A stretch of DNA of 64,000 nucleotides. Origin: Flavobacteriales bacterium. GTDB lineage: Bacteria; Bacteroidota; Bacteroidia; Flavobacteriales_F; PHOS-HE28. Both the position numbers and the translations under genes were made by a program. Shown here in pieces: positions 14,757 through 35,914 of this stretch. Within the stretch, counting starts at the first letter, position 1; every line of letters starts with the position of its first letter. The notes beneath the pieces were generated by a model. The model ran no database searches, was not told the DNA's origin, and saw only the letters and a list, made by a program, of their open reading frames with translations. Location: NCBI GenBank assembly GCA_019638115.1, contig JAHBUK010000004.1:1-64000 (forward strand), written 5' to 3'.

Positions 14757-17753
14757 TCACCGCGCCCCAACCGACATGCGCTCGGGCTTGATGCGGGCCG
14801 CCACTGCGGCGTGCACCACCTCCTGGATCTTGGTGCGGATGCCCAGCTCCACCAGCTTGTTGCGCTCCGCGTTGGGGTACACCCGGTTGCTGAGGAACAC
14901 GTAGATCACCCCGTGCTCGGGATCGGCCCAGACCATGGTGCCGGTGAAGCCCGTGTGGCCGAAGCTGGCATAGCTCACGCAATCGCAGGTGGGGCCCTTG
15001 CCGCTGCGCGCCGGTTTGTCGAAGCCCAGCGCCCTGCGGTTGCCGCTGCCATCGGGCTTGCAGAACTGGCACTTGGTGAACTCCGTGATGACCGCCTCGC
15101 TGATGTAGCGCCGCCCGCCGTAGGTACCGCCGTTCAGCAGCAGCTGCATGAGGATGGCCAGGTCGTTGGCACTGCTGAAGAGCCCGGCATGACCGGCCAC
15201 GCCGCCTTTCAGGGCCGCACCAGGGTCGTGCACATCACCCTGTATCTGGCGCTGGCGGAAGGCCACATCGTATTCCGTGGGTGCGATGCGCTCCTTCGGG
15301 AACCGCTTCCAAGGCTGGTAGCCCATGCCCGCAGCGCCCAGCGGACGGTAGAACTCCTGTTGCAGGAAGTCCTGCAGCGGCTTTTGGGTGATGCGTTCCA
15401 CGGTGGCCTGCAGCAGGTAGTAGCCCATGTCGCTGTACACGTATTCGCCGCGCGTGCCCAGCGGCGTGCGCAGCACCCACGGCAGCAGGCTGTCCGTGTA
15501 GGCGCGGTGCAGGTAGAGCCCTTCGGCGATGCGCGTGGGAAAGGTGTCCGAGGCCGTGGGGCTCACCGTGTTGGGCTTGAACTTACCGTCCTTCATCAGC
15601 CGCAGGTGGAAGGGCACGAAGGCCTTCAGGCCGGCCTGGTGGGTGAGGATGTCGCGCAGCTGCATCTTGGCGTGCGCCGGGTATTCGGCCGCGAGCTCCG
15701 GCAGGTAATGCCCCAGGCGCTGGTCCAGGTCCAGGCTGCCCTGGTCCACCAGCTTCATCAAGGCCAGCGTGGTGGCGGCCACCTTGGTGATGGAGGCCAG
15801 GTCGTAGAGGTCGTCGGTGCGCACGGCCCGCTTCTTCTCGTAGGTCTGGTGCCCATAGGCCTTGTTCATGATCACCTGCCCATCCACGGCCACCAGCACC
15901 TGGCAACCGGGGTAGGCCTGCCCCTCGATGCCGCGCTTCACGATGTCGTCGATGGCACGCAGTTCCGCCGAGCGGATGCCCACCGCTTCGGGCGCCGCAT
16001 AACCCAGGCGCGGCAGGGCCTTCACCACCACCCCATCGCCCGCGGCATAGAAGGCGGAAGCGGTGACCGGCAGCGCCCCGTCGGCGTTGCGTGCGCCGAA
16101 GATCACCTGCGCCACCAGGTCCTGCGTGTCGTCGGTCTCCTCGTAGGCCACCACCACCGTGGCCAGCATCTCCGGCCCCACGGCTTTGGCCAGGCTGTAG
16201 GGGTTGGCGAAGAGCGCCAGCACCGTGGGCTGCTGTTGTGCGATGGCGCGGATGATCTCGTGGCTGCTGGCGGGTACCCCGAAATCCTTGTTCACCCGGA
16301 AGGTGGTGCCGTGCACGGAGACCACCACGCGGTTGAAGCCCTTGAGCTGCTTCAATAGGCCGGCCAGGCTGTCGGCCTTCATGGCCTTGTCGGCACGGAA
16401 GAGCGTTACCTCGGCGTAGCGCTTCAGGTGCTTCTGGAAGGCATTGTCCAGCTCGTCGCCGATCACCACCGAGGCGATGCGCAGGGTATCGAGCTCGCGG
16501 ATCGGCAGCAGGCCGTAGTGGTCCTTGGCCACGGTGATGGCCGCGCCGTAGAGCGAGCGCCGCAACTCCTGCCCGTAGGGCGTGTTCAGGTCCTCGTGCA
16601 GGCCCTTCAGCTCAATGGGCTTGCGCTCGGCCAGCCCCGCCCACTCCTTGGCGCGCAGCAGCTTCAGGCAGCGGCTGTCGATGATCGTGCTGTCCACTTC
16701 GCCATTGGCCACCGCCAGCTTGATGCGTTCGATCGCCTTCACGGGGTCCTGCGGGAAGAGCATCACGTCGTTGCCGGCCAGCAGCGCGCGCAGCTCGATC
16801 TCGCCCGGCTTGTCGGCGTTGGCCACGCCCTTCATGTTCAGCGCATCGGTGAAGACCAGTCCGCGGAAACCCAGTTGCTTGCCCAGCAGTTCGGTGACGA
16901 TGGCCTTGCTCAGCGTGCTCGGCACACCCTTGGCGGGGTCCAGCGCGGGCACCTCCAGGTGGGCCACCATCAGGGCGCCCAGGCCGGCGTTCACGATCCG
17001 GCGGAAGGGCTCCAGTTCCATGGAATCCAGGCGGCCGCGGCCGTGCGCGATGAAGGGCAGGGCGTGGTGCGAATCGCTGTCCGTGTCGCCGTGACCGGGG
17101 AAGTGCTTGGCCGTGGCGAGCACCCCGCCGCGCTGCAGGCCGCGCATGTAGGCGATGCCCTTGCGCGCCACGTTGTCCACACCTTCCCCGAAGCTGCGGT
17201 CGTTGATCACCGGGTTCTTCGGGTTGTTGTTCACGTCCACCACCGGGCTGAAGCTCACGTGCACGCCCAGGCGTTTCATCTGCCGGGCGATCTCCAGGCC
17301 CATCTCCTCCACCAGCGCCTCGTTGCGCAGCGCGCCCAAGGCCATCTGGCGCGGAAAGCGGATCGTGCTGTCCAAGCGCATGGCCAGCCCCCACTCCAGG
17401 TCCATGCCCAGCATCAGGGGCGTCTTGGCAAGGGCCTGGTAGCGGTTGGTGAGCTTCGCCTGGCGGTGCGGACCGCCCTGGAAGAAGATGAGGCCGCCGA
17501 TGTTGCGCTCCTTCACCAGTTGCTCGATCTCCGCTTCGTGCTTCGCGTCCTTGTTGCTGTAGGCCGCCACCATCATCAGCTGCGCGATGCGCTCATCCAG
17601 CGAGAGCGTGGCGTACACCGAATCCGCCCAGGGCGTGGCACGGTCCAGAAAGGGCGGCGCACCGGGATCGGCACCGCGCTCGGGCGGCGCCTGCCCACCC
17701 ATGCCCAGGGTGACGGCGGAAAGCAACAGAAGCAAGGAGGAACGGACCATCAT
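14757..17753 (-). CDS. Glycoside hydrolase family 3 / serine beta-lactamase-type fusion protein
   Basis: Protein of 998 residues with a signal peptide (MMVRSSLLLLLSAVTLGMGGQ). Residues about 45-380 form a GH3 N-terminal domain of the NagZ type, with 'FPRQMALGA', 'SFSPVVDVN', 'KHFPGHGDTDSDSHH' (about 214-228) and nucleophile Asp in 'FTDALNMKG' (about 302). A GH3-like alpha/beta domain follows (about 400-590). The last 400 residues are a beta-lactamase/serine hydrolase with 'SITK' (SxxK, about 652), 'YSDMGYY' in the YxN position (Asp instead of Asn), and 'GHTGFTGT' for the third motif. The fusion is known in Bacteroidota and is presumed to act on peptidoglycan N-acetylglucosamine or muropeptides in the periplasm. 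The promoter lies within a duplicated segment upstream. Confidence 0.88.
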   Translation of the reverse strand: MMVRSSLLLLLSAVTLGMGGQAPPERGADPGAPPFLDRATPWADSVYATLSLDERIAQLMMVAAYSNKDAKHEAEIEQLVKERNIGGLIFFQGGPHRQAKLTNRYQALAKTPLMLGMDLEWGLAMRLDSTIRFPRQMALGALRNEALVEEMGLEIARQMKRLGVHVSFSPVVDVNNNPKNPVINDRSFGEGVDNVARKGIAYMRGLQRGGVLATAKHFPGHGDTDSDSHHALPFIAHGRGRLDSMELEPFRRIVNAGLGALMVAHLEVPALDPAKGVPSTLSKAIVTELLGKQLGFRGLVFTDALNMKGVANADKPGEIELRALLAGNDVMLFPQDPVKAIERIKLAVANGEVDSTIIDSRCLKLLRAKEWAGLAERKPIELKGLHEDLNTPYGQELRRSLYGAAITVAKDHYGLLPIRELDTLRIASVVIGDELDNAFQKHLKRYAEVTLFRADKAMKADSLAGLLKQLKGFNRVVVSVHGTTFRVNKDFGVPASSHEIIRAIAQQQPTVLALFANPYSLAKAVGPEMLATVVVAYEETDDTQDLVAQVIFGARNADGALPVTASAFYAAGDGVVVKALPRLGYAAPEAVGIRSAELRAIDDIVKRGIEGQAYPGCQVLVAVDGQVIMNKAYGHQTYEKKRAVRTDDLYDLASITKVAATTLALMKLVDQGSLDLDQRLGHYLPELAAEYPAHAKMQLRDILTHQAGLKAFVPFHLRLMKDGKFKPNTVSPTASDTFPTRIAEGLYLHRAYTDSLLPWVLRTPLGTRGEYVYSDMGYYLLQATVERITQKPLQDFLQQEFYRPLGAAGMGYQPWKRFPKERIAPTEYDVAFRQRQIQGDVHDPGAALKGGVAGHAGLFSSANDLAILMQLLLNGGTYGGRRYISEAVITEFTKCQFCKPDGSGNRRALGFDKPARSGKGPTCDCVSYASFGHTGFTGTMVWADPEHGVIYVFLSNRVYPNAERNKLVELGIRTKIQEVVHAAVAARIKPERMSVGAR

Positions 17754-17893
17754 CGGAACAACGCAAGGAAGAACGGGACAAGTACCCGGCGCGCAGCAGT
17801 ACTCGCAAGCACCATGCCCCGCGCCAGGGACCAAAGCTACCGGGGCCCGCAGGGGCGCTTGGGCGGGTGGGGCGGCAGTTTTGAACAGGGGCG
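17754..17893. repeat. Duplicated 140-bp segment, copy A
   Basis: This segment is repeated almost perfectly at 19074-19213, exactly 1320 bp away and in the same orientation. It abuts the start codon of the GH3 gene and contains that gene's presumed -7 box. Confidence 0.9.
17832..17839 (-). promoter_or_regulatory. -7-type box for the GH3/beta-lactamase gene
   Basis: The minus strand reads TAGCTTTG, an exact TAnnTTTG match, about 79 bp upstream of the start codon. The box is duplicated at 19152-19159, where no minus-strand gene follows. Confidence 0.45.
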
Positions 17894-17928
17894 TTTGGGG
17901 AAGCGACGTGCCCCCGCACCTTCGTTGG

Positions 17929-18000
17929 CTCTCCTGTAAAGTACCCTGCGCCTCATGGCATCCGTTGCATGCAGGGCCCCCTCGTACCTCGGGAGAGCCA
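17929..18000. repeat. About 70-bp imperfect palindrome, copy B
   Basis: The ends GGCTCTCC and GGGAGAGCC pair, and the middle holds CCGTTGCATGCAGGG. A diverged copy in the same orientation lies at 18992-19062 next to segment A'. A related 'TCTCCTGCAAGGGACCCTGCGG' motif (22 bp) occurs near 23286. Confidence 0.7.
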
Positions 18001-18167
18001 TGCGGAGGGTCCGGGCGGTTGCGGTCCATCGCACCTTGAATTCACTGGCGCATGCCTGTCCGTGTGCGCCGCTGCCTATGCGGCCCACAGCAGCAAGGTG
18101 CAAACATCAGGGTGTGGCAGATCATGCAGTGAAAGCGATCACGATCAATGCGTACTTTCAAGCGCTC

Positions 18168-18959
18168 ATGTCCTTCGCCACGGGCCCTTGGCATACCCCT
18201 CCGAACTTACCGGACGATCCGGCCGAGTGGTGTTTGGTGCTGCTTTTCCGAAAGGGTGCGCATTACCGCTACGATGTGCTCCGATACAAGGACGGTTGGG
18301 TGCAACAGAACGGCGAAGCGCTGGGGCCGGAAACTTGGGTATCGCGCTGGGCCTATGTTGCAAGCAGCATCGAGCGCATGAGCGAGTTGCCACCACTTGA
18401 TCAACTGCCCACGGAAAGCCGCTTGTTCGTTGGTGATGCACTCACCGACGCTGAGCGTATGCGGCTGCTGGTATCCTATGTGGGTGCCCTGAAGCGAGAC
18501 TTGGCACAGGCAAAGGAAGAACTCGACCGGGCCCATGAGCGCAACCCGAGCTCAAGGCATCTGGAAAGTAAGTTGCGCTGCTTGGAGAATGAACGCAAGT
18601 TGCAACTTGCCAGCCGCGAAAAGCGGTTGGACGAACAGCGTGTCCAGCTGATCTCCCTGCGCGAACAGGTGCAGAAACTCACCTCAGCCTTGGCCAAACA
18701 GCAGCAGGCCGAGCGCTTGAAGGAACGCTTGGCAGAGGCTGAACAGCGAGCGGCCGCCTACCGTTCCGAAAGTGTACGCTTGAAGAGCGCCTTGGAACAG
18801 GCACAGGCAAAGGAGAAGGCCCAACGCGTGGAGGCTGTGAAGGAAAAGGCCTTGCGGGACAAGAAGATCCACGAACAACGCCGAACACTGGTGGACCTTG
18901 AGGCCTTGGTGCTCAAACTGAAGGAGCGCTTGAACCGGGGCACACCTGCGGACCGCTGA
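18168..18959 (+). CDS. Coiled-coil protein of unknown function
   Basis: Protein of 263 residues if started at ATG 18168 (MSFATGPWHTPP). The frame is open further upstream, so a GTG start near 18129 is possible. Residues 1-95 form a small globular region rich in aromatics (WCLVLLFRKGAHYRYDVLRYKDGWVQQ). Residues about 100-255 are almost continuous Glu/Lys/Arg/Gln/Leu heptads, a long coiled coil. No family recognised. The gene sits between two pairs of duplicated segments (A/B upstream, B'/A' downstream), which suggests it arrived by insertion or amplification. Confidence 0.6.
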   Translation: MSFATGPWHTPPNLPDDPAEWCLVLLFRKGAHYRYDVLRYKDGWVQQNGEALGPETWVSRWAYVASSIERMSELPPLDQLPTESRLFVGDALTDAERMRLLVSYVGALKRDLAQAKEELDRAHERNPSSRHLESKLRCLENERKLQLASREKRLDEQRVQLISLREQVQKLTSALAKQQQAERLKERLAEAEQRAAAYRSESVRLKSALEQAQAKEKAQRVEAVKEKALRDKKIHEQRRTLVDLEALVLKLKERLNRGTPADR

Positions 18960-18991
18960 TGCAATACCCTCAGCCCTCCACACCTCCGCTG

Positions 18992-19062
18992 CCTCTCCTG
19001 AAAGGCCCCCTGCGTTTCGTGGGATCCGTTGCATGCAGGGTCCCCTCGTACCTCATGAGACC
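18992..19062. repeat. Copy B' of the 70-bp imperfect palindrome
   Basis: Shares ATCCGTTGCATGCAGGG and CCCTCGTACCTC with copy B at 17929-18000, with about 20% divergence elsewhere. Confidence 0.7.
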
Positions 19063-19073
19063 TGCATAGGTTT

Positions 19074-19213
19074 CGGAACAACGCAAGGAAGAACGGGACA
19101 AGTACCCGGCGCGCAGCAGCACTCGCAAGCACCATGCCCCGCGCCAGGGACCAAAGCTACCGGGACCCGCAGGGGCGCTTGGGCGGGTGGGGTGGCAGTT
19201 TTGAACAGGGGCG
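19074..19213. repeat. Duplicated 140-bp segment, copy A'
   Basis: Differs from 17754-17893 at only a few positions over 140 bp, with a constant offset of 1320. It lies about 110 bp upstream of the EEP gene. The gap of 364 bp between 18960 and 19323 contains only B', A' and a short unique stretch. Confidence 0.9.
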
Positions 19214-19323
19214 ATGGGAAGAGGTCTGCTCGATATGCATCGGGGGGGGAAGGGAATGCGCAACACCCGCCCACCCGATGTTGTAAGTTCAACCTCCCTA
19301 CCAACCCAACGAAAGCGCGCGCC

Positions 19324-20265
19324 ATGCCACCCTTCCCCAAGCCCCGCATCACCTACACCGTGGATCTGGCCGCTGAGCGGCGACACCTGCGTGCACATGC
19401 CACCCACCGGCAGGTGCCCGCGCGGGATAAGGACCACCTGCTGCTGGCCACCTGGAACATCGCCAACCTGGGCTTGCAGGAACGCGATGAGGTGCACTAT
19501 CAGCTCCTGGCCGACATCATTGGCCGTTTCGACCTGGTGGCCATCCAGGAGGTGAACGTGGACCTGGGTGGCTTGCGCGCCATCCAGCGGCACCTGCCAG
19601 CGCATTACGCCTGCGTGTTCACCGATGCGGGCGGCAACAACGAGCGGAGCTGCTTCGTGTACGATGCCTCGGTGCTCAGCCTGCTGGAACTGGTGGGCGA
19701 AGTGGCTGTGCCGCCCAGCGATTTCCGGCACATCAAGCTGCCGGGGGTGCAGCAAGCCTTCGCGGGTTTCGATCGCAATCCCTTCATTGCCAGCTTCGGG
19801 TGGCGCGACCGCACCTTCAGCATGGTAACGGTACACAGCTTCTTCGGATCGGACAGCGACCCGGCCGACCTGGACCGCCGCGCCTTGGAGACCTTCGCCG
19901 TGGGCCGCTGGGCCGACCTCGAAAGCCGCAGCCGACATGCCTACAGCAGCGACATCCTCGTCATGGGCGATTTCAACCTGCCCAAAGTGGCAACGGGCGA
20001 CCCCATCTACGAGGCACTACGCAAACGCGGCCTGCTGCTGCCCGAGCACACCAGCAAGGTGTACAGCAACATCACCGACGACAAACAATACGACCAGATC
20101 GCCTTCCTGCCCGGCCTCCGGGGGCGCCTGCGCCAAGCCGGCATCTACGACATGGACAACGCCCTCTTCCCCGACCTCTGGACCGCCGACAAGCGCGGCT
20201 TCCGGAGCTACATGCGCTACTACATCAGCGACCACCGGCCTTATTGGATGCAACTGGGGGTGTAA
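19324..20265 (+). CDS. Endonuclease/exonuclease/phosphatase (EEP) family protein
   Basis: Protein of 313 residues, with no signal peptide. EEP (DNase I-like) motifs are in order: 'LATWNIANLG' (about 38-47), 'LVAIQEVN' (about 69-76), 'VTVHSFFGSD', 'ILVMGDFNLPK' (about 213-223), 'YDQIAFLP' and 'ISDHRPYWMQL' near the C-terminus, carrying the Asn, Glu, Asp and His metal and catalytic residues. The substrate may be nucleic acid or a phosphoester. The start at MPPFPKPRITYT is supported by the lack of homology-like sequence upstream. A possible -7 box (TAAGTTCA) lies near 19284. Confidence 0.85.
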   Translation: MPPFPKPRITYTVDLAAERRHLRAHATHRQVPARDKDHLLLATWNIANLGLQERDEVHYQLLADIIGRFDLVAIQEVNVDLGGLRAIQRHLPAHYACVFTDAGGNNERSCFVYDASVLSLLELVGEVAVPPSDFRHIKLPGVQQAFAGFDRNPFIASFGWRDRTFSMVTVHSFFGSDSDPADLDRRALETFAVGRWADLESRSRHAYSSDILVMGDFNLPKVATGDPIYEALRKRGLLLPEHTSKVYSNITDDKQYDQIAFLPGLRGRLRQAGIYDMDNALFPDLWTADKRGFRSYMRYYISDHRPYWMQLGV

Positions 20266-20390
20266 GGGGGGCAAGCTTCTCGTTCGCGCTGGCGAGAAGC
20301 GCAGGATCGCAGTGTCACGAACGCTATGGACCTTCATGGGTTGTTGTACAGACCCGATCACACTCCAGGCAGGACACTGTGGTTACCCTA

Positions 20391-21245
20391 TCAGACCCGG
20401 TGCACCAGTTCGGCACATATCGTGGCGACCGCGAAGGCTGTAACGTCCACTATGGTCATGTCCAATGCCAGCCACTCCTTCGCCACCAAGGCTACGATGA
20501 GGAACCCTGCGAAAACACCGACCATCAAATTCGCAGAGCGTTCAGACCTGTAGAACGGCTGCGACCCAAGGATCTCGTGTCCGAAGCGTTTCCAGTACAC
20601 ATAGAGCAGAACTGGCACGAAAATGTACTTCGCATGCGGATCCTTAATGATATCCGTTGCGGCGTGAGCCCCCGTGGCCGGCGCTACGAAGAGGAACACG
20701 GTTGCAATGATGCGCTGTGGGAGGGGAGATCGAGCACCGCTCTTCTTGCCCTTCGATCCATCCGGGATACTCGGCGGTTCATCCTTCTTGCGACGCCGTA
20801 GAGACGATGGATTTCTCGGTATTTCTCTGCTGAGTTCGCACTTTGCACTGTGCCTGATGGCCATCCAGACCTTCCTCTGGACCGCACTCCGCTCACGGGA
20901 CAATGCTTTGTGGCAAAGCTCCCTTTCCTTGCGATGAGCTCCGTACACTTCCGATTCAACGTTCACCTTGCGAACTGGATCCTGCTCCAGCACACCCAGG
21001 ATCGCCTGTTGCAGATCAGCTTCGCGCCATCCATTCGAATAAGCTTCCAGGTCGCTCTCCCCGGTATCGATCGCGGCAAGTATTGGAGTAACTACTTGGA
21101 AGTAGCGGTCCACGCATTGACGTCGGCTGCTCAACGCGAGACCCGAGCGTCGTATCGAACTGATCGCTTCATCCGCCTGCGTTCTTGCACGGGTCTGGAC
21201 GATGGCTACTGCATTGCGGTAAGGGGAGGGAGTAAATTGGTACAT
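20391..21245 (-). CDS. Hypothetical protein with C-terminal membrane helices
   Basis: Protein of 284 residues, not recognised. Residues 1-165 are charged and helical, with a basic stretch near 150-175 (SSLRRRKKDEPP, SKGKKSGARS). Three hydrophobic segments follow: 'IIATVFLFVAPATGA', 'YIFVPVLLYVYW' and 'LMVGVFAGFLIVALVAKEWLALDM', then 'VDVTAFAVATICAEL'. Base composition is visibly less GC-rich than the flanks, which hints at acquisition. The ATG at 21245 gives a start with no obvious ribosome site. Confidence 0.5.
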   Translation of the reverse strand: MYQFTPSPYRNAVAIVQTRARTQADEAISSIRRSGLALSSRRQCVDRYFQVVTPILAAIDTGESDLEAYSNGWREADLQQAILGVLEQDPVRKVNVESEVYGAHRKERELCHKALSRERSAVQRKVWMAIRHSAKCELSREIPRNPSSLRRRKKDEPPSIPDGSKGKKSGARSPLPQRIIATVFLFVAPATGAHAATDIIKDPHAKYIFVPVLLYVYWKRFGHEILGSQPFYRSERSANLMVGVFAGFLIVALVAKEWLALDMTIVDVTAFAVATICAELVHRV

Positions 21246-21436
21246 GGTGGAAATGGTGTTGAGTACGTTGAGCTACTGAACCGACCATTCCACGCGATAG
21301 ATGGCCAATGTGCCGACCACACGAGGGGTACCGCGGAGGCGGAGAACCCTATTGATGTCGAACACGTACATTTGGCCTCCATTATGGAATGGCGCCTCCC
21401 CTGATCGCTGCCAGGCATAAAGGGGGGCACTACCAG

Positions 21437-21464
21437 GGCCGCGGTTCGCACCGCGGCCTTTTTC
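21437..21464 (+). terminator. Strong hairpin with T-tract in a gene-free gap
   Basis: A 9-bp perfect stem (21437-21445 with 21450-21458) with a 4-base loop is followed by TTTTTCTTTC on the + strand. No + strand gene is recognised upstream for over 1 kb, so it may end an unrecognised transcript or be the remnant of a lost gene. The gap 21246-21608 holds nothing else I can name. Confidence 0.6.
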
Positions 21465-21608
21465 TTTCGCCATCCACACGATCCCACATCCTTCCATTCC
21501 CTACCTGCACGAACAGAGCAGGCCCACGCCGTATCACTCGGGTGGCGGCAGACCATGGGCTCAATTGCTATGCAGGGAACGGTGCTCATGAAGGTGTGTG
21601 AACAGCGA

Positions 21609-21929
21609 TCATTTCTTCGCAAAGGCTTGAGTGATGATCACTTCCAGCAGGTTGCTCGCCGAGCGGTTCTCCGAGGCGGCTCGCTCGCGGAGCTTCGCGA
21701 TCAAGGAAACATCCAAGTTGAAGCTCACCACCTTCTTTCTACTTCTCCGCTCAGATGCCCCCATACGCATCGCGGCCTCTACATGATCGACCGGCTCAAG
21801 GACCTTCCGGTATTTGATCGTGAAGGCTGCCGCCTGATTGAGTTCGCTTTCATCGAACTCCTTCTGCTGATGGCTCAGCTCCGCCTTCGAGAAAGGACTT
21901 ACAGCTTGGGTTTTCATGCTCTTGTTCAT
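21609..21929 (-). CDS. Putative ribbon-helix-helix/antitoxin-like DNA-binding protein
   Basis: Protein of 106 residues. The C-terminal 42 residues, beginning 'RKKVVSFNLDVSLIAKLR' and ending 'SASNLLEVIITQAF', have the strand-helix-helix pattern of CopG/MetJ-type ribbon-helix-helix proteins; the polar 'SASNLLEVII' is typical of helix B. The N-terminal half is charged and probably disordered. No toxin partner is adjacent: the next gene on the same strand ends at 20391. It may be an orphan antitoxin or a plasmid-type regulator. Confidence 0.55.
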   Translation of the reverse strand: MNKSMKTQAVSPFSKAELSHQQKEFDESELNQAAAFTIKYRKVLEPVDHVEAAMRMGASERRSRKKVVSFNLDVSLIAKLRERAASENRSASNLLEVIITQAFAKK

Positions 21930-22094
21930 TGCTCTCGAAAGGTAATGAGATCTTAATAAGGCACATTAGCATGTTAATAACTTCCAGCAAGACGAGTTCA
22001 ATCCAATCAGCGATCGTGAATAACTGGATCCTTACCATGCCACTCCTGGGTCCTGGAGCACCTCGCCCCCTTGCTGTGAACAGAGCCCCCTGAC

Positions 22095-22245
22095 GCTGAG
22101 CAGAAGCGAGGCAACACATCCTCTCATCCTCACATCCTCTCATCTTCACATCCTCACATCCTCTCATCTTCACATCATCACATCATCACATCTTCACATC
22201 CTCTCATCTTCACATCTTCACATCTTCACCACCTCCCCAACAAAA
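22095..22245. repeat. Low-complexity CATC(T/C)TCA tract
   Basis: Repeats of TCTTCACATC, TCCTCACATC and TCATCACATC fill about 150 bp between genes. Similar tracts lie at 25045-25235 and (as complement) 49258-49330. No gene is visible in the rest of 21930-22292. Confidence 0.8.
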
Positions 22246-22292
22246 AACCCCGGCTTCCGCCAGGGTCCCTTGCTCAGCAGCACTTCGGGGCT

Positions 22293-23090
22293 TCATGGCC
22301 AGGGCCATGCGTAGATCAGTTCCGGGCGGAAGGGGGGCGGGGTGCCCAGCACCAGGCGCAGGCTGGTGCTCGCTACGCAGTAGCCCCAGCCCTCCAACTG
22401 GGCGGCGGCGGCGCGGTTGCCTTCGGGCACCACCAGGTGCGCTTGCGCGGGCAGCAGCCAGCGTTGCAGTTCCAGGCCGGCGGCGGGGTGGTCGGCCACA
22501 ATGAGGCCATCGCCCAGCAGGGGCAATAGCACGCCGTGCACGCCCTGTGCGGTGGCGTACACGCGTGACGCGTAGCTGTGCTCCAGCAGCAATTGCGTGT
22601 GCTGCTGGCCGGTGGCGCGGTGATGGAGGCGGAGCAGCGCCATGCTGTGCACCGCTTCCAGCGGCACCACCTCGGCGCGCTCGGCCTCGGCGAAGCGTTC
22701 CTCGGGGTCGGGCTCCCAGGTCTCCAGCGCGGCCTGTTCCACGAAGCCGGCCTGCTGCCACCAGCAGGCATCGGCCGGCAGGGCCTGCAACACCAGCGGC
22801 ACCTGGCCGGCCGCGCGGCGCAGCGCCAGCAGCCCTTGCAGCAGCACGTGCAGCGCGTTGTCGGTGGCGGCGGGGTGGCAGCGCAGCCAGCGCAGCACCT
22901 GCAGGCCATCGCCGTGGTGCAGCACCGTGGCCAGCGCCTGTGCGCGGCCCTGTGCGCGGGCCACCAGCACGTGGGCCTGGGGCGTGTGCAGGCACCAGCG
23001 CAAATGCCCCAACAGCCGGGGCGGTGGGGCGGTGCAGTGGCGCAGGAGGCTCAGCAGGTCCTGCTCGGTATGGGGGTGCCAGAGGTGCAT
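22293..23090 (-). CDS. Probable GNAT-type acetyltransferase-like protein
   Basis: Protein of 265 residues from MHLWHPHTEQD. The layout suggests two tandem GNAT folds: residues about 50-150 ('VLVARAQGRAQALATVLHHGDGL', 'HPAATDNALHVLLQ' and 'CWWQQAGFVEQ') and a C-terminal one ending 'VPEGNRAAAAQLEGWGYCVASTSLRLVLGTPPPFRPELIYAWPWP' (residues about 221-265). The Leu-Gly-x-Pro-Pro...Arg-Pro-Glu-Leu-Ile-Tyr ending resembles the second domain of YitH-like GNAT proteins as I remember them. No acetyl-CoA Q/RxxGxG/A motif is clear in the C-terminal half. The start excludes an open upstream stretch made of repeat sequence. Confidence 0.45.
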   Translation of the reverse strand: MHLWHPHTEQDLLSLLRHCTAPPPRLLGHLRWCLHTPQAHVLVARAQGRAQALATVLHHGDGLQVLRWLRCHPAATDNALHVLLQGLLALRRAAGQVPLVLQALPADACWWQQAGFVEQAALETWEPDPEERFAEAERAEVVPLEAVHSMALLRLHHRATGQQHTQLLLEHSYASRVYATAQGVHGVLLPLLGDGLIVADHPAAGLELQRWLLPAQAHLVVPEGNRAAAAQLEGWGYCVASTSLRLVLGTPPPFRPELIYAWPWP

Positions 23091-23099
23091 GGGGGTGGG

Positions 23100-23275
23100 G
23101 GATGAGAAAATGAGAAAATGTGGAGATGAGAAAATGGGGGGATGAGAGAATGTGGACGCTTCGACTTCGCTCAGCGTGATGGGGAGATGGGGGCGCTTCG
23201 ACTTCGCTCCACTTCGACTTCGCTCCACTTCGACTCCGCTCCACTTCGACTCCGCTCAGTGTTCGACTTCGTTAC
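23100..23275. repeat. Family 2 repeats and GAGAATGTGG tract
   Basis: A GATGAGAAAATG-type run is followed by five or more CTTCGACTTCGCT or CTTCGACTCCGCT units. These are the same element as at 6970-7310. The gap 23091-23394 contains no gene. Confidence 0.75.
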
Positions 23276-23394
23276 CTGCGCCGGGTCTCCTGCAAGGGAC
23301 CCTGCGGCTCGTTGGAGGTGTGGTGGTGCACAACGACCGCGGCCCCGGCATGCCCAATTGCAGCGCCGGGGCCTTGGTCATCGTTGTCATGACA

Positions 23395-24027
23395 TCAGGC
23401 GGCTTTGGCGCTGGTGATGTCGCTTACCGGGCTCACGCCAGCGGCGCCCAGGGCCTCCACGCGGAAGAAGTAGCTCTTGCCGCTCTCCAGGCCGTCCACC
23501 TGCACACGGGTCTTGCCCGTTACGGTGTGCAGGCGCCAGTTGGCCTCCACCAGCGGGTCGCTGTCGCAGATGTAGAGCTGGTAGGCCAGGCGGCGCTTCA
23601 CCCCGCCGAAGCGCACTTCCAAGCTGCCGGGGAAGGGGCGCACCAGGGCCAGCACATCCTTGGGAGCGGGCAGCAGGCCCACCGGCTTGGGGCTGGCGGC
23701 CATCTCGAAACCGGCACTGGTGATCAGCTCCGGATCCCCGTTGCTGGTGGTCTGCACGTAGCCACCGAGGTCCTGGCGCAGCAACTTCAGCTCGCGGAAG
23801 GCGATGTCGCGCTCCTGCTTGTCAAGCCGGCTGCGGCTGAACAGGTAGGCCTGCGTGGCCGCTTCCAACCGGGCCGCAGCGGCCGTAAGCGCGGCCAGCG
23901 TGGGGCTGGGCGTGGGGAACGCGGCGTTGCCCGTGAGCATGCTCACGTTGGTGCCCGTCATGTCCACCAGCTTCTCGAAACCTACCCGGGAGTGCCCGAG
24001 CTTCACTACATAATACTGCTTCTTCAT
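23395..24027 (-). CDS. Fibronectin type III domain protein
   Basis: Protein of 210 residues with no signal peptide. The N-terminal half is helical ('AALTAAAARLEAATQAYLFSRSRLDKQERD'). The C-terminal ~85 residues form an FnIII domain with 'LEVRFGGVKRRLAYQLYICDSDP', 'WRLHTVTGKTRVQVDGLESGKSYFFRVEALGAAGVSPVSDI', the typical Trp, Leu, Tyr and Phe framework. These two quotations are discontinuous stretches of about residues 132-210. Similar short proteins are common in Bacteroidota genomes and their role is unknown. The start ATG at 24027 gives MKKQYYVVKL. Confidence 0.65.
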   Translation of the reverse strand: MKKQYYVVKLGHSRVGFEKLVDMTGTNVSMLTGNAAFPTPSPTLAALTAAAARLEAATQAYLFSRSRLDKQERDIAFRELKLLRQDLGGYVQTTSNGDPELITSAGFEMAASPKPVGLLPAPKDVLALVRPFPGSLEVRFGGVKRRLAYQLYICDSDPLVEANWRLHTVTGKTRVQVDGLESGKSYFFRVEALGAAGVSPVSDITSAKAA

Positions 24028-24109
24028 GGTGCGAGGGCCTGTCATGCTGTACCCACAAAAGCGTTGGTTAGGGGCCCTTATCCGCAGCAGAACAAGGCCG
24101 GGTTGGCGC

Positions 24110-24155
24110 ACTACCGGATACCCGGTAGTCAAACAACTACCGGATACCCGGTAGT
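24110..24155. repeat. Two tandem perfect 20-bp palindromes
   Basis: ACTACCGG-ATAC-CCGGTAGT occurs at 24110-24129 and again, identical, at 24136-24155, 26 bp centre to centre. They lie 83 bp upstream of the FnIII gene on the minus strand, in a position where an operator could act. They could equally be REP-like. Confidence 0.6.
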
Positions 24156-24289
24156 CGAAGCGCTGTAAACCCCGTTAACAGTGGCCTGCAGCAATTCTTC
24201 CTGTCCTGCTCATTTTCCGCAGTTGCCGCAGCGGTCCAGCAGCCCGGGAAGCACCCCCGCCTCCCCTTCCGTGCTCAGCGGTACCGGGT

Positions 24290-24610
24290 ATCACGCCGCG
24301 CGGCACGCGACGCACGCCACGGGACACGCGGCATACGCCGCAAGGCACATGGCACACGCCACGAGGCGCGCGTCACACGCCGCGAGGCACGCGTCACACG
24401 CCACAAGGCGCGCGACACACAACGCGAGGCAAGAATCACACGCCACGAGGCACGTGTCACACGGCGCAAGGCACGCGTCACAGCGCGCGAGGCACAGGTC
24501 ACAGCGCACGAGGCACGCGTCACACGCCACACGGCACGTGTCACCCGAAGCGAGGCACGCGTCACACGTTAAGAGGCACGCGTCACACGCCACGCAGCAA
24601 GCGGCACGCG
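24290..24610. repeat. 21-bp minisatellite, about 15 units
   Basis: A unit of consensus GCACGCGTCACACGCCACGAG repeats with an exact 21-bp period. I could follow the phase through 24352, 24373, 24394 and so on to 24583 without a single indel. Degenerate units extend left to about 24290. Units differ by substitutions only. Because 21 is divisible by three, the array is open in three frames, but none looks like an ordinary gene. Confidence 0.85.
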
Positions 24611-24849
24611 CTGTCATACACGTGCCTCAGCGCAGCATACACTGTTCTCCTGGCAGCAGCGTGCCGCAAAATGGCGCTTCACAGCCCGCAGGCAACGAGC
24701 GCCGCACCCTCCCCACCACCATCCAGCAGCCAAGCCATGGACCACCAGGGTGGCGCACATTCCCATTACCCACCTGCCGGCCCTGCGGGTTTATACAAGA
24801 ACCGACAATTCGATAGCTATCCACATGTCGCCCCTACGGGGCTTATCCG

Positions 24850-25045
24850 CTCTCACTTCGACTCCGCTCCACTTCGACTTCGCTCCACTTCGACTCCGCT
24901 CAGTGTGAGCGTTCTCCTACGCTGAGCGCAGGCGAACGCTGAGCGAAGTCGAACGCTGAGCGAAGTCGAACGCTGAGCGAAGTCGAACGCTGAGCGAAGT
25001 CGAACGCTGAGCGAAGTCGAACGCTGAGCGAAGTCGAAGCGTCAT
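24850..25045. repeat. Family 2 repeats, including a 17-bp tandem array
   Basis: CGACTCCGCTCCACTTCGA units at 24855-24900 are followed by six exact copies of CGAACGCTGAGCGAAGT (17-bp period, 24935-25039). The two arrays have complementary sequence. Confidence 0.85.
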
Positions 25046-25235
25046 CACATCTTCACATCTTCACATCCAATAATCTTCACATCCTCACATTTTCACATCA
25101 TCACATCTGTCATTGCGAGCAAAGCGAAGCAACACATCTTCACATCATCACATCATCACATCATCACATCATCACATCATCACATCATCACATCATCACA
25201 TCCTCACATCCTCACATCCTCACATCTTCACATCA
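25045..25235. repeat. CACATCAT octamer array
   Basis: About 190 bp of CACATCAT/CACATCTT units, interrupted once by TGTCATTGCGAGCAAAGCGAAGCAA. The whole gap from 24028 to 25241 (1214 bp) is repeat sequence apart from a unique stretch of about 24615-24850 in which I see no gene. Confidence 0.85.
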
Positions 25236-25241
25236 CGCTGA

Positions 25242-25907
25242 TCAACTCTCCCTCAACCCATTCAACAACACCAAGCGCATCAGCTCATCCTTCCCGTGGA
25301 TGCCCAGCTTCTTGTAGCCGTTGCGGCGGTGCGTTTCGGCGGTGTGGAGAGCAATGCCCAGGCGCGTGGCCACCTCGGCCAGGTCGCGCACCCCTTCGCT
25401 CACATAAAGCAGCAGCAGCTCCTGCTCGCGGGGGCAGAGCGTGCCCCAGCGCTCGGCCGGCCGCTCGCCTTCCGCCTCCACCGTGCGCAACAGGTCGCGG
25501 CTCACGTACTGGTTCACGTAGTAGCCCGTGCTCATCACCGCGTTCATGGCGCGGTGCAGCTCCTTCAGGCCAACGCCCTTGCCCAGCACCGTGCAGGCGT
25601 GGCTCTGCAGCGCCTTGCGCACCACGGCGGGCGCCGGGTCGTAGGTGATGGCCAGGGCCTTGGTGCGCGGCTGGTGCTTGTGCATCCAGCGCATCGTTTC
25701 GTAGCCGTCGCGCCGGGGCATCCGCACATCCACCAAGGCCAGGTGCACATGCCCCCAGTCCGCGCAGCGCTCCGCATAGTCCACCCCATCCTCCGCCTCC
25801 AACACCTCCAGGGTATAGGGCCACTCCCGCACCGTATCCACGATCCCCCGGCGCGTCAACGCAAAGTCCTCGATCACAGCAATACGTAGCGACTTCTCAG
25901 CTATCAT
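25242..25907 (-). CDS. LuxR-family response regulator (receiver plus HTH)
   Basis: Protein of 221 residues. The receiver domain (about 7-125) has 'IAVIEDF' (acidic pocket), 'LALVDVRMPRRDGYE' (phospho-acceptor Asp), 'LAITYD' and 'VLGKGVGLKEL' (conserved Lys). The C-terminal 65 residues are a LuxR/NarL-type HTH: 'LCPREQELLLLYVSEGVRDLAEVATRLGIALHTAETHRRNGYKKLGI' (split over residues about 155-201). The start ATG 25907 (MIAEKSLRI) is preferred to upstream extensions. No sensor kinase is adjacent and the gene stands alone beside repeat arrays. Confidence 0.88.
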   Translation of the reverse strand: MIAEKSLRIAVIEDFALTRRGIVDTVREWPYTLEVLEAEDGVDYAERCADWGHVHLALVDVRMPRRDGYETMRWMHKHQPRTKALAITYDPAPAVVRKALQSHACTVLGKGVGLKELHRAMNAVMSTGYYVNQYVSRDLLRTVEAEGERPAERWGTLCPREQELLLLYVSEGVRDLAEVATRLGIALHTAETHRRNGYKKLGIHGKDELMRLVLLNGLRES

Positions 25908-26405
25908 GGCCAACTCTGTTTTGCGCCACCGGCAGCGCACGGGCCGCATGCCGGCAGCAGGTGTGCGGTTGAAAATAGACAGCCTTCGCTCCCTCCCCGC
26001 TTCCTCCCCTGCCAATTTCTTCCGCTTCTATACAGCCCCGACCGGCTCTTGCAGCGGCGGCACACGGGTTATGGGGCGGTGGTTTTTAGGTGCGCAGCAA
26101 GGGCTTGAGCTTAGGGGCCTTGGGCATTTAGGCTTCAGGCCTAAGTTCACTTCAATGCCGGGTGCTCTATGGCCTTTGGGGCTTCACGGCATTGGGCCAT
26201 GGGTTCTCAGGCCATCGGCGCCGGGAATTATTGGCCTTTTCACATCAGACCTCGGGACGATCTACCATCATAGGCATCCTCGGGACGCAAATGACCCAAG
26301 CCAATAATCAGCCGCTCCAGCTCATTGCGGAAATAGAAGAAAGACGATCAAGCCACTTGCCAGCGGTACCCGATCCGTGGAACAACTATTTTGAGCCCCT
26401 GAACC
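25908..26405. other. Gap before the restriction operon
   Basis: Nearly 500 bp without a convincing gene. 26070-26250 has a run of GGCATTGGGC/GGCCTTTGGG-like words that look like decayed repeats. A 56-codon frame (26291-26461, starting MTQANNQPLQLIAEIEERR) overlaps the start of hsdM in another frame; it has a plausible amino-acid make-up but no support beyond that. Confidence 0.5.
26387..26393 (+). promoter_or_regulatory. -7-type box for the type I RM operon
   Basis: TATTTTG lies 12 bp before the hsdM ATG at 26406 and matches the TAnnTTG core; it would give a very short leader. No -33 partner at the usual distance. Confidence 0.4.
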
Positions 26406-28721
26406 ATGGACCACGCCCAACACACCCGCATCGTTTCCTTCATCTGGGGCATCGCCGATGATGTGCTCCGCGATGTGTACACCCGCGGCAAGTACCGCGA
26501 TGTCATCCTGCCCTTCACCGTGCTGCGCCGACTGGACGCCGTGCTGGAGCCCACCAAGAAGGCCGTGCTGGACATGAAGGCCATGCTGGACAAGCAGGGC
26601 ATCGTGAACCAGGACGAGGCCCTGCGCGCCGCCGCCCAGCAGGCCTTCTACAACACCAGCCCCTTCACCCTGCGCGACCTGAAGAACCGCGCCAACGCCC
26701 AGACGCTGAAGGCCGACTTCGAGGCCTACCTCGCCGGCTTCAGCCCCAACGTGCAGGACATCCTGCTCAACTTCGGCTTCCACACCCAGGTGCCCAAGCT
26801 GGCCAAGGCGGATGCGCTGGGCTATGTGATCGAGAAGTACCTCGACCCCACCATCAACCTCAGCCCGCATCCGGTGGGCAACCTGCCCGGCCTGGACAAC
26901 CACGCCATGGGCACCATCTTCGAGGAGCTGGTCCGCAAGTTCAACGAGGAGAACAACGAGGAGGCCGGCGAGCACTGGACCCCGCGCGACATCGTGAAGC
27001 TGATGACGCGCCTGATGTTCGTGCCCATCGCCGACAAGATCGAGAGCGGCACCTACCTGCTCTACGATTGTGCCTGCGGCACCGGCGGCATGCTCACCGT
27101 GGCGGAAGAGACACTGAAGGAGCTCGCCACCCAGCACAAGAAGCAGGTGGCCACCCACCTCTACGGGCAGGAGATCAACGACGAGACCTACGCCATCTGC
27201 AAGGCGGACATGCTGATGAAGGGCGAGGGCGACAACGCCGACAACATCGTGGGTGGCGGTGAGCACAGCACCCTCAGCAACGATGCCTTCCCCGGCAAGG
27301 AGTTCGACTTCATGCTGGCCAACCCGCCCTACGGCAAGAGCTGGAAGAAGGACCAGGAGCGCATGGGCGGCAAAGGCGGAATGCGCGACCCGCGCTTCAT
27401 CATCGAGCACGACGGCGATCAGGAGTACTCCCTCGTCACGCGCAGCAGCGACGGCCAGATGCTCTTCCTGGCCAACATGCTCAGCAAGATGAAGCGGAAC
27501 ACGCCGCTGGGCAGCCGCATCGCCGAGATCCACAACGGCAGTTCACTCTTCACCGGTGATGCCGGGCAGGGCGAAAGCAACATCCGCCGCTGGATCATCG
27601 AGAACGACTGGCTGGAAGCCATCGTGGCCCTGCCGCTCAACATCTTCTACAACACCGGCATCGCCACTTACATCTGGGTGCTCACCAACCGCAAGCCCGC
27701 CCACCGCAAGGGCCATGTGCAGCTCATCGACGCTACGCAGTGGTACAAGCCGCTGCGCAAGAACCTGGGCAGCAAGAACTGTGAGCTGGGCGAGGACGAC
27801 ATCCAGCGCATCGTGGACCTCTTCCTTCAGTTCAAGGAGACCGAGCACAGCAAGATCTTCCCCAACAAGGCCTTCGGCTATTGGAAGGTGAAGGTGGAGC
27901 GCCCCCTGAAGCTGCGTGCCCGTTTCACCCGCGAGGCGGTGGATGCCCTGCGCTTTGGCAGCGGCGATGAGGAGTTGCGTAGCGCGTTGTATGAGGAGTT
28001 CGGCGATGAACTCGGCACCAACTTCGGCAGCGTGCGCAAGGCCGTGGAAGCCTGGCTGGATGCCCAAGGCAACGAGCCCGAGGAGGCCGAAGGCGACGAG
28101 GACGCACCCAAGGCAAAGTCCATCCCCGAAAAGAAGCGCAAGAAACTGCTGGACCCCAAGACCTGGGAACGCGACCTGCGGTTGGCTGACACCGCCACCC
28201 GGCTGCTGAAGCACTTCGGCGACCGCGTGTTCAACGACCTGGAGGAGCTGGACCGCGAACTGGACGCTGCGGAGAAGAAGCTGAAGCTGGACCTGGGCAA
28301 AGCCGAGCGCAAGCTGCTGGTGAACGCTGTAAGCTACCGCGACGAAAGCGCCCCGCCCGTGATCAAGAAGGTTTACAAGCCCGGCAAAGCAAAGGCCGAC
28401 CCCATCCATGGGCTCTTCGAGGCCACCGTGGATGGCAAGCCCGCCGTGGTGGAGTACGAGCCGGACAGCGAGCTGCGCGACCACGAGCAGATCCCGCTCC
28501 TAAAGGAAGGCGGCATCGAGGCCTTCATCCGCCGCGAGGTGCTGCCCTACGCCCCCGATGCCTGGGTGGATGAGGGCGCCACCAAGGTGGGCTACGAGGT
28601 CAGCTTCAACCGCTACTTCTACAAGCCGCAGCCGCTGCGCAGCTTGGAAGAGATCCGAAAGGACATCGTGGCGTTGGAGAAGGAGACGGAGGGCTTGTTG
28701 AACGAGATCATCAGTGCTTGA
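26406..28721 (+). CDS. hsdM: Type I restriction-modification methyltransferase subunit HsdM
   Basis: Protein of 771 residues. It methylates adenine N6 within the sequence chosen by HsdS, and is required for both modification and restriction complexes. An N-terminal HsdM helical domain ('IVSFIWGIADDVLRD...FTVLRRLD', residues 9-42) is followed by the SAM-binding motif 'DCACGTGGML' (221-230) and the amino-methyltransferase motif NPPY (306-309). 'GEHWTPRDIVKLM' is also typical. Family members are often about 500-550 residues; here the region after about 520 adds some 250 residues, with an acidic linker (EEAEGDEDAPKAK) and helical segments. It heads an operon of six genes. Confidence 0.95.
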   Translation: MDHAQHTRIVSFIWGIADDVLRDVYTRGKYRDVILPFTVLRRLDAVLEPTKKAVLDMKAMLDKQGIVNQDEALRAAAQQAFYNTSPFTLRDLKNRANAQTLKADFEAYLAGFSPNVQDILLNFGFHTQVPKLAKADALGYVIEKYLDPTINLSPHPVGNLPGLDNHAMGTIFEELVRKFNEENNEEAGEHWTPRDIVKLMTRLMFVPIADKIESGTYLLYDCACGTGGMLTVAEETLKELATQHKKQVATHLYGQEINDETYAICKADMLMKGEGDNADNIVGGGEHSTLSNDAFPGKEFDFMLANPPYGKSWKKDQERMGGKGGMRDPRFIIEHDGDQEYSLVTRSSDGQMLFLANMLSKMKRNTPLGSRIAEIHNGSSLFTGDAGQGESNIRRWIIENDWLEAIVALPLNIFYNTGIATYIWVLTNRKPAHRKGHVQLIDATQWYKPLRKNLGSKNCELGEDDIQRIVDLFLQFKETEHSKIFPNKAFGYWKVKVERPLKLRARFTREAVDALRFGSGDEELRSALYEEFGDELGTNFGSVRKAVEAWLDAQGNEPEEAEGDEDAPKAKSIPEKKRKKLLDPKTWERDLRLADTATRLLKHFGDRVFNDLEELDRELDAAEKKLKLDLGKAERKLLVNAVSYRDESAPPVIKKVYKPGKAKADPIHGLFEATVDGKPAVVEYEPDSELRDHEQIPLLKEGGIEAFIRREVLPYAPDAWVDEGATKVGYEVSFNRYFYKPQPLRSLEEIRKDIVALEKETEGLLNEIISA

Positions 28722-28723
28722 CC

Positions 28724-29854
28724 ATGGCCAAGTCCAGTAAACTCCGCGTAATGCTCTCGAGTCGATGTAACGATTCCTTCCCTATTGGTCAGACCAAGCG
28801 CAAACTGTCCGACCTGCGGAAGGACTTGAAGCAGGAGATTGAAGCGATCAAGATCGGCGAGCGCGATTTGTTCGAGGTTTGGATCAACGAGGACACGCCA
28901 CCTCAAAGTGGCAATGCGAACGCATGGGAAGTTTGCCTTGATGCGGCACGAGAGTGTGACATCTTCATCGCATTGTGCAATGGTGATGCGGGATGGGCGC
29001 GCCCCAAGCATGCCAGTGACCTTGGAGTGTGCCATGCTGAACTGGAGCAAGCATTCAGTTCTACTACAGCCAAGGTGTATGTGGTCCAGTTGGAGGGCAA
29101 GCCAGCGAGGAAAGGCGCAGCAGGCAAAAGAAACAAGGCCTTTGAGGATTATGTCAAGCGCTTGGGACCATTTCGTGGCGGTAAGATCGCAAGCACTGAG
29201 GCGGACGCCAAGGAACTTGTGCTTGGTGCGCTCAGCGAGGCAATAGTGAAGCTCACGCAATCTGGCGTGGTAGAAGCTTCAAAAGGAAGGAACCACAATG
29301 GTGCAGCATTGGACTGGACACGCCTTGATTTCAAGGCACGACGGGATGCCATGGTGGCGGTGCTTCATAAAGCGCTGTTCGATCGACCGGGTTCGAAGGA
29401 AGAGGGATCTAATGTGGTTGTCGAGTTCGGCGGGCATAAGGTTCTGATGGTGCCGCATGCCATACCTGCCGCATTTGGTGTTGGTCCAGCACGTGAATTG
29501 GTGGGTCAGCCCTTCTTGAATGACCATCGGTTGGCGCCTTCATTGAGCCGTGGACGCGGCGGTCCGGTCCACGTGATCGCGTGCCACAAGAATGCTACAG
29601 AGAACCAAGCTGCCGCACTCCTTGGCTTTCCCGATGCAACGATCATTTCAGCACCGTTCGGGGTGTTCGTTGCTGACCGTATCAATAAGGTCCAATTCGT
29701 TTTCCTTACCCATTGCCAAGATCCATCCTCCACCAAGCATGCCGTCCAACGGTTCATGGATTGGCTGGATGAAACAGGCGAGGCGCTCCTGATGGCCAAC
29801 CGAGCAAAAGCGAGGGCTAGCATTGTACGGATCATTGCAAAGGAGATGATATGA
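28724..29854 (+). CDS. DUF4062-type protein inside the RM operon
   Basis: Protein of 376 residues from ATG 28724; a TTG at 28718 would overlap the hsdM stop. The N-terminus 'KLRVMLSSRCNDSF' followed by 'LFEVWINEDTPP', 'CLDAARECDIFIALCNGDAGWA' and 'GVCHAELEQAF' matches the DUF4062 pattern, a TIR/nucleoside-binding-like alpha/beta fold found in many defence and signalling proteins. The C-terminal 200 residues ('VVVEFGGHKVLMVPHAIPAAF', 'HVIACHKNATENQAAALLGFPD') are not recognised. GC content is lower than in hsdM. The stop overlaps the hsdS start as ATGA, so it is translated as part of the operon. Role in restriction is inference. Confidence 0.75.
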   Translation: MAKSSKLRVMLSSRCNDSFPIGQTKRKLSDLRKDLKQEIEAIKIGERDLFEVWINEDTPPQSGNANAWEVCLDAARECDIFIALCNGDAGWARPKHASDLGVCHAELEQAFSSTTAKVYVVQLEGKPARKGAAGKRNKAFEDYVKRLGPFRGGKIASTEADAKELVLGALSEAIVKLTQSGVVEASKGRNHNGAALDWTRLDFKARRDAMVAVLHKALFDRPGSKEEGSNVVVEFGGHKVLMVPHAIPAAFGVGPARELVGQPFLNDHRLAPSLSRGRGGPVHVIACHKNATENQAAALLGFPDATIISAPFGVFVADRINKVQFVFLTHCQDPSSTKHAVQRFMDWLDETGEALLMANRAKARASIVRIIAKEMI

Positions 29855-31263: not shown

Positions 31264-31295
31264 CGAACTAACTTTGAAGACTACACGCACTTAAC

Positions 31296-31766
31296 ATGGG
31301 CAAGACAGCAGTAGCAACCAAGCGAACCGTAGCGACCAAGAAGACCGCCAAACGAGCGTCGAAGCGGGCACCGAAATTGGACCTCGTCATTCGGCTGAGT
31401 CTTTCCGCAAACCGCAAGTGGGGCACTACCATGAGCGCGACAGCTGTGCGCAATGCGATGCAGACTTCGTTCATCAGCCAAACGCAGATCCTGAAGGCCA
31501 TTGACCTGAAGCCCACCGAGTGGTCGCGGCTCAACGAAAGTCGGAAGGATCTGGACGTGCTGCGCTCCGATCGGTTGAAGCTCGTGGACCAGTTGGTGGA
31601 TCGGAGCATTGAAGTGTACGGTGATAAGGGGAAAGCGGAGCGCTGGTTGAAGCGCGCGAACCCCTACCTGGGCAATAAGGCACCCGTGGAGTTGTTGGGA
31701 AGCATAGAGGGCATCGCCAAAGCGATGGCGGAGCTGGACAGGATCGAAGCCGGGGTGTTCGCATGA
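31296..31766 (+). CDS. Xre/MbcA/ParS-type antitoxin of a RES-Xre pair
   Basis: Protein of 156 residues. The C-terminus, with 'AERWLKRANPYLGNKAPVELL' (residues about 113-133) and 'GSIEGIAKAMAELDRIEAGVFA', is the toxin-binding DUF2384/MbcA domain. The middle ('FISQTQILKAIDLKPTEWSRLNESRKD', roughly residues 59-85) resembles an Xre-like HTH. The first 28 residues are a basic tail rich in Lys, Thr and Ala (TAVATKRTVATKKTAKRASKR), not typical of this family. It lies 32 bp after hsdS, and its stop overlaps the toxin start as ATGA. The antitoxin would neutralise the toxin and repress the module. Confidence 0.85.
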   Translation: MGKTAVATKRTVATKKTAKRASKRAPKLDLVIRLSLSANRKWGTTMSATAVRNAMQTSFISQTQILKAIDLKPTEWSRLNESRKDLDVLRSDRLKLVDQLVDRSIEVYGDKGKAERWLKRANPYLGNKAPVELLGSIEGIAKAMAELDRIEAGVFA

Positions 31767-35238: not shown

Positions 35239-35431
35239 CAGATGAACCTCAGACCGGCGCAGGGTCTCACGCAGTGGACCCTGCGGCTAACCCAATGCCA
35301 CACGTTCAAGAGTCGCTGGCCGGGGTGTGCGGGCATTACCACGTTCACAGCTTGCTGTTCGCAACCTGTGGCGTGTAGCACTTCGATCCGCAGCACCACG
35401 CTACTTCCTTTGGGTATAACCACACCCTGCC

Positions 35432-35701: not shown

Positions 35702-35914
35702 GGCCCGCGGCGCGGTCGTTCGCATTGTGCGTTCCGAAAGAGAAGGGCATTGAACGTGGAAGGACCAGGCCTTCAGGTGCGTGGTGCTGCTCGGCCATTG
35801 AAGCATCGCTGGTCTCCCGTAGCGGCCGCTCCGGCTTCAACCCGCGCCCGCTCAGAGCCGCCCCACCAACACCACGGCCTCGAACAGCCCCCCTCCCCCT
35901 TCCCCCCCCATCGC

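Follow-up and report, generated by a model that had tools for sequence, protein, structure and literature searches.

The window analysed, a 64-kb stretch of a Flavobacteriales genome (contig JAHBUK010000004.1 of assembly GCA_019638115.1), contains a gene for a GH3 protein with a beta-lactamase domain, upstream of which a small coiled-coil gene is enclosed by two segments, A and B, and their second copies, B' and A' (Table 1). Comparison of the copies bears out the layout given in the original prediction. A and A' form a 146-nt direct repeat with 97% identity (differences at 5 of 145 compared positions) and a spacing of exactly 1320 bp, and B and B' (86 nt, 81% identity without gaps, spacing 1064 bp) lie inside them, giving the nested order A-B-gene-B'-A'. 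Because this order is nested even though every copy is direct, a plain tandem duplication was rejected. A BLAST search of the 4.06-Mb genome with A returned A' (E 1.1e-64) and no third copy, the remaining rows being short fragments or B, and viral contigs gave 0 matches to A. The earlier view that A' is a recent second copy is thereby supported. An assembly artefact is very unlikely, since the two copies and their flanks differ and the assembly consists of 9 contigs at 100% completeness.

Table 1. Features of the GH3 locus and its surroundings, in window coordinates
Feature	Position	Strand	Basis
GH3 and beta-lactamase domain gene with its promoter in A; core gene	14757..17753	-	Pfam PF00933 and PF00144; 42 of 45 genus genomes at E ≤ 1e-60
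A, native copy, with the GH3 leader and promoter	17753..17898	-	Conserved promoter boxes ahead of GH3 in 20 of 29 relatives
Promoter in A with two boxes, TGTTCAAAAC ... TAGCTTTG, whose starts are 48 bp apart	17832..17887	-	Box pattern
Block between GH3 and mutL, ~18 kb	17899..35900		tblastn against relatives; right limit approximate
B, REPIN doublet of two inverted hairpin units, degenerate	17915..18012	-	Covariance model R1, 68.8 bits, E 7.6e-19
Bracketed gene, DUF551-like N-terminal domain and long coiled coil, 263 aa	18168..18959	+	Homologue alignment, structure model
B', second REPIN doublet, starting 20 nt past the stop codon of the bracketed gene	18979..19074	-	Covariance model R1, 68.8 bits, E ~8e-19; spacer common with B
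A', derived copy of A, adjoining B' at its outer end	19073..19218	-	Repeat comparison, BLAST
Two-box promoter copy in A', intact, predicted to read into B', antisense to the bracketed gene	19152..19207	-	Box pattern
Endonuclease/exonuclease/phosphatase-family gene	19324..20265	+	PF03372; 1 of 45 genomes
HsdM, HsdS, and HsdR genes of a type I restriction system, enclosing that of an Xre-type antitoxin	26403..35235	+	Domain search
mutL, right neighbour of the block	36241..38064	+	PF01119, PF08676

The -7 box of the GH3 gene that had been proposed within A is real: in A and in A' alike the minus strand carries an intact TAGCTTTG, preceded 48 bp upstream by an equally intact TGTTCAAAAC. No third pair of boxes with such spacing was found in the 64-kb window. 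Upstream regions were compared for loci from 29 of the 41 relatives with a GH3 match, and a TGTTnAnAAC-like box followed by a TAnnTTyG-like box, 48-49 bp start to start, was present in 20 of them under the strict pattern; the remaining 9 carry variants or are cut within the gene. As the boxes are conserved upstream of GH3 in relatives, the copy on the GH3 side, A, is native and A' derived. The spacing of the boxes exceeds the usual distance between -33 and -7 elements, and in some relatives the upstream box is DnaA-box-like. In the genome studied the -7 box lies 86 nt from the GH3 start codon, and in 26 of the 28 relatives' loci measured it lies 23-52 nt ahead of the first aligned residue; the two others, at 70 and 136 nt, are loci in which the alignment begins late. 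The gap between promoter and GH3 is filled by a 21-codon leader ORF on the minus strand (17750-17815, MVLASTAARRVLVPFFLALFR), which is signal-peptide-like and whose stop codon overlaps the GH3 start codon. Transcription from the promoter in A' would enter B' and then the coiled-coil gene, antisense to the latter. The earlier statement that A' has the promoter and no minus-strand gene stands as regards the intact promoter and the lack of a GH3 gene; its second half is qualified by an ORF of 125 codons (18758-19135) that leaves A' and runs through B', and which is probably spurious.

The start codon of the bracketed gene is most likely at 18168 and not at 17955 inside B, since its homologues align from the methionine of MSFATGPW or close to it, one of them from residue 4. 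Homologues at E ≤ 1e-5 were found in 10 of 45 genomes, the genome studied included. Among the nine others, five match over most of the length and four in the first ~80 residues only, and all five long homologues lie on a contig other than that of GH3 in their genomes. Named relatives of the gene (5 loci) come from Flavobacteriales or Bacteroidota metagenome-assembled genomes. A phage or virus origin was considered and dropped, as no relative was present in viral contigs and no usable PHROGs match was obtained. Sequence searches of Pfam, NCBIfam, and PDB returned weak coiled-coil matches only. The structure model consists of a small beta domain and a long helix (pLDDT 83.8, pTM 0.29), and the N-terminal domain was also modelled alone (pLDDT 76.1, pTM 0.60). 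In a Foldseek search of a viral library with this domain, the best three matches were DUF551 proteins (E 2.2e-3 to 5.0e-3, TMq 0.54-0.57, probability 1.00), followed by many further matches, whereas nothing below E 0.8 was found among PDB structures, and DUF551 was absent from the matches listed in a Pfam scan of six members. The modelled domain is thus better called DUF551-like than a proven member: its closest fold matches among viral models are DUF551 proteins, but the Foldseek E values are 2e-3 or weaker and a coiled coil of ~165 residues follows the domain here. The same DUF551-like domain also occurs in a stand-alone small gene (L039, C6:138700-138927 of the genome studied; L035; L038), which in several genomes has a presumably fabG-like gene beside it.

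B and B' are REPINs of a dispersed family; each is a doublet of inverted hairpin units of ~35 nt, built as AAACCTCCGCAGGGTCTCC...GGGACCCTGCGG, a spacer, and a mirror copy. When an 87-nt sequence of a different genus member was used as BLAST query, the genome studied gave 52 rows, palindromic places being counted on both strands. A covariance model built from 14 aligned doublets, 13 from the genome studied (G000) and one from G019, gave 45 rows there, which correspond to ~25 distinct places, and detected the family in 35 of the 45 genus genomes. Two-sided changes were seen in 4 of 21 consensus pairs, and the covariation term was small (-0.09). The model scores both B and B' best on the minus strand, so that they are direct to each other. 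The spacer of B and B' is common to the two and absent from the other doublets compared, and they are therefore taken as copies of one doublet. The main support for this kinship is that spacer; in a MAFFT alignment B and B' are alike at 69 of 96 positions (72%), and B' and one other REPIN at 67 of 87 (77%), making B' nearer overall to the latter. A pair of transcription terminators was also considered; the hairpins could serve as such, but the family is dispersed and also found inside genes. Among the papers listed by our literature search, none named this REPIN family and none dealt with a RAYT in Flavobacteriales, which is no proof of absence from print. The present analysis describes a REPIN family and its candidate transposase in a genus of uncultured Flavobacteriales.

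The candidate transposase is a RAYT-like Y1 transposase gene (L105/L107, C1:718401-718985) with B-type hairpins, inverted to each other, on both flanks. A search of the genome with PF01797 gave six rows, four of them over the curated cut-off; this gene scored 18.2 bits, below it. Homologues at E ≤ 1e-10 were present in 16 of 44 genus genomes, that studied included, and many are likewise surrounded by hairpins, which by eye are of the same kind in close relatives and different in distant ones. TnpA_REP subclass 2.6, equivalent to RAYT group 5, is described as mostly from Bacteroidetes and as having atypical flanking hairpins without GT[AG]G (PMC6006769). The family studied here is likened to it by that published description rather than by family sequence (PMC6006769), both having doublets of inverted hairpins scattered over a Bacteroidota genome and a Y1/HuH gene flanked by hairpins that lack GT[AG]G. 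Measured against the motifs NH[LIV]H, YIH[QN]NP, and a serine tail, the protein, with NHAH, YIHANP, and PHSS, deviates slightly in the first two, and its relatives have NHVH or NHLH and in some cases YIHHNP or YMHNNP. With these deviations, the motifs of the transposase resemble those of the group 5 / subclass 2.6 type, and we infer that it moved these REPINs. A further difference from subclass 2.6 is that several doublet-rich genomes of the genus are without a close RAYT. Our own prediction that RAYT and doublets would co-occur across the genus genomes failed on inspection by eye: G053, with 41 doublet matches, has a RAYT match just 29% identical, and G046 (18 matches) and G010 (17) have no RAYT match at 1e-10.

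REPINs of this family are strongly clustered. Of the 25 places in a hand-made list, drawn up from the covariance rows with overlapping rows merged, 20 have a neighbouring REPIN within 3 kb, against a mean of 0.85 for random placement, which never reached 20 in 5000 trials. The true figure is somewhat lower, because two listed places (C4:319260 and C4:321336) are parts of a longer repeat of a different kind. This longer repeat (L223, C4:317500-325500) is an array of same-strand orphan genes with long repeated spacers ~2.06-2.08 kb apart and 80-97% alike, cassette-like and distinct from A and B. Direct pairs were also found in other genomes of the genus (1057 bp apart and 100% alike in G054; 720 bp, 93% in G013; 3314 bp, 92% in G059). 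With close pairs frequent in both genome and genus, the pair B/B' is typical.

Pairs of this kind raise the question of a composite mobile unit, in which the RAYT would move B-gene-B' together and, with an end lying beyond the REPIN, take along the neighbouring 146 bp of A. Such a unit would fit the frequent closeness of REPINs, the start of A' at the end of B', and the presence in the same genome of a second orphan gene, lipoprotein-like (L193 1769-2715, C3), between two direct REPINs that are 91% identical and have a spacing of 845 bp. The genes between the REPIN pairs examined are, however, unlike each other, B and the bracketed gene are found together at no second place in the genome, and no B-family match (covariance model, E ≤ 1) surrounds the five long homologues of that gene (L030-L034); A/A' and B/B' moreover differ in age, as set out below. 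The arrangement was accordingly not classed as a composite transposon, in which like elements move the DNA between them, as there is no second B-gene-B' and the homologues lack REPINs. A composite unit is thus improbable here. The still more specific version, in which REPIN pairs in general act as unit ends, A-B-gene-B'-A' is a transposition product that includes flanking DNA, and orphan genes such as that flanked by the REPINs at C3:738271 and C3:739116 are further cargo, is very doubtful.

The whole arrangement forms the left edge of a block of ~18 kb that separates GH3 from mutL in the genome studied and that comprises, besides the bracketed gene, a nuclease gene, tandem arrays, and a type I restriction system. 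When the ORFs of the window were compared by tblastn with the 1.5 kb upstream of GH3 in the relatives, mutL was found to adjoin GH3 in 18 of 29; the neighbourhood is variable anyway, as the other 11 have no mutL within 1.5 kb. The PF03372 nuclease gene next to A' had no match at E ≤ 1e-30 in any of the other 44 genus genomes. These results uphold the expectation that the arrangement is derived and that relatives have a corresponding site without such DNA, and they mark the GH3-mutL junction as a place of restriction-gene addition. Within the restriction system, the Xre-type antitoxin gene lies between HsdS and HsdR and is followed by an ORF that we assume to be RES toxin-like. Between 22072 and 25274 lie short tandem arrays, whose periods are 8, 16, 17, and 21 bp and some of which are split over two separate stretches. 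The proposal that A-B-gene-B'-A' is one nested unit, made by a single insertion that brought in the coiled-coil gene, was not supported by the comparison: B and B' belong to a dispersed family in which close pairs are common, they are far more diverged than A and A', and the added block comprises ~18 kb and not only the coiled-coil gene.

The difference in divergence is marked, with A and A' far more alike than B and B' (Fisher p 6e-8, using the gapped B alignment), and for this reason the two duplications probably took place at different times, unless the rate of change is higher in REPINs. On balance we favour, with moderate confidence, an account in which two independent processes met at one spot: dispersal of REPINs, and copying of the GH3 promoter during the addition of DNA between GH3 and mutL. 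In the first process, REPINs would be non-autonomous hairpin doublets, presumably copied by the single-strand transposase of the group 5 / subclass 2.6 RAYT, and one of B and B' would have given rise to the other nearby, across the small coiled-coil gene. In the second, the GH3-mutL stretch would be a variable place at which DNA was added in this lineage, and A would have been duplicated during one such addition. One side of the new DNA would have joined at A and the other, at the end of B', through a non-homologous joint, with A' left as a by-product. Both the mechanism of joining and the order of events, REPIN dispersal being the older and promoter duplication the younger, are what we infer from these comparisons. 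Homology at one end combined with an illegitimate joint at the other has been described in competent bacteria and in E. coli conjugation (PMC3240628). Such homology-facilitated illegitimate recombination, with its homologous anchor and illegitimate joint, could leave A-X-A'; it is put forward here as a candidate mechanism, no donor having been found. Nor was a genome close enough to show intermediate steps found, the GH3 proteins of the nearest relatives being 78% identical. The start of A' falls at the end of B', and this exact joint at a REPIN end, for which chance is no explanation, counts against the favoured account. So do the doublet-rich genomes without a close RAYT, the greater overall nearness of B' to another REPIN than to B, and the variable neighbourhood of GH3 in relatives.

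Two other routes to the second copy of A were weighed. In a Campbell-type integration by a single crossover, a circle carrying A and B-gene-B' would have recombined with the chromosomal A to give A-X-A'. Direct homologous repeats around new DNA are the expected remnant of such an event, and the 97% identity would then equal the difference between donor and recipient; yet 146 bp is a short homology, and no carrier is seen, since the 1.3 kb holds the coiled-coil gene and no other. We regard this route as unlikely. Alternatively, template switching at a replication fork may simply have duplicated A locally, in an event unrelated to the block. To this tentative alternative we give slightly more credence: there are just two copies of A, A' is 1.3 kb away in direct orientation, and short repeats and arrays are frequent in the block, but it leaves unexplained why the ends of A' correspond to the REPIN end and the GH3 start codon. 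Under the favoured account, the striking sequence pattern would be accounted for by two known kinds of process. The hairpins belong to a type of mini-transposon that is already known, and the remainder resembles a scar left by gene insertion; the arrangement is therefore mostly ordinary.

REPINs of the B family were also found in frame inside genes. Kynureninase contains one in the genome studied (L042/L210, C3:660390-660476), in G053 (L134), and in G058 (L136), and a UDG-family gene of the genome studied (L045, C1:105669-105886) contains two doublets in frame. Further cases are a 3-hydroxyacyl-CoA dehydrogenase in G046 (L138), a family 9 glycosyltransferase in G002 (L151), and an FmdE-domain protein in G019 (L026). 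Nine spanning ORFs picked from a longer list were searched with Pfam, of which seven had domains and two had none. Intragenic REPs are already known (PMC3733652), so that the in-frame copies here extend a known phenomenon. They resemble the palindromic elements of Rickettsia and the intragenic GTAG REPs of Opitutus terrae in that some copies lie in frame in conserved enzymes, and differ from both in that the family has a group 5-like RAYT and no GTAG; B and B' themselves, unlike Rickettsia-type in-frame elements, are extragenic. The family may in this way link REPINs to the in-frame palindromic elements of Rickettsia, and its in-frame copies in core enzymes and its strong clustering make it a candidate for testing the target choice of group 5 RAYTs. 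The reading frame through the in-frame REPINs is often, although not always, the same. A kynureninase query had matches in 42 of 45 genomes, which ran across the insert in the three genomes named above only; in the others, the two parts were matched separately, mostly with adjoining coordinates, or one part only was matched. Human kynureninase (7s3v) aligns to both flanks of the insert, and hardly any of its residues fall in between.
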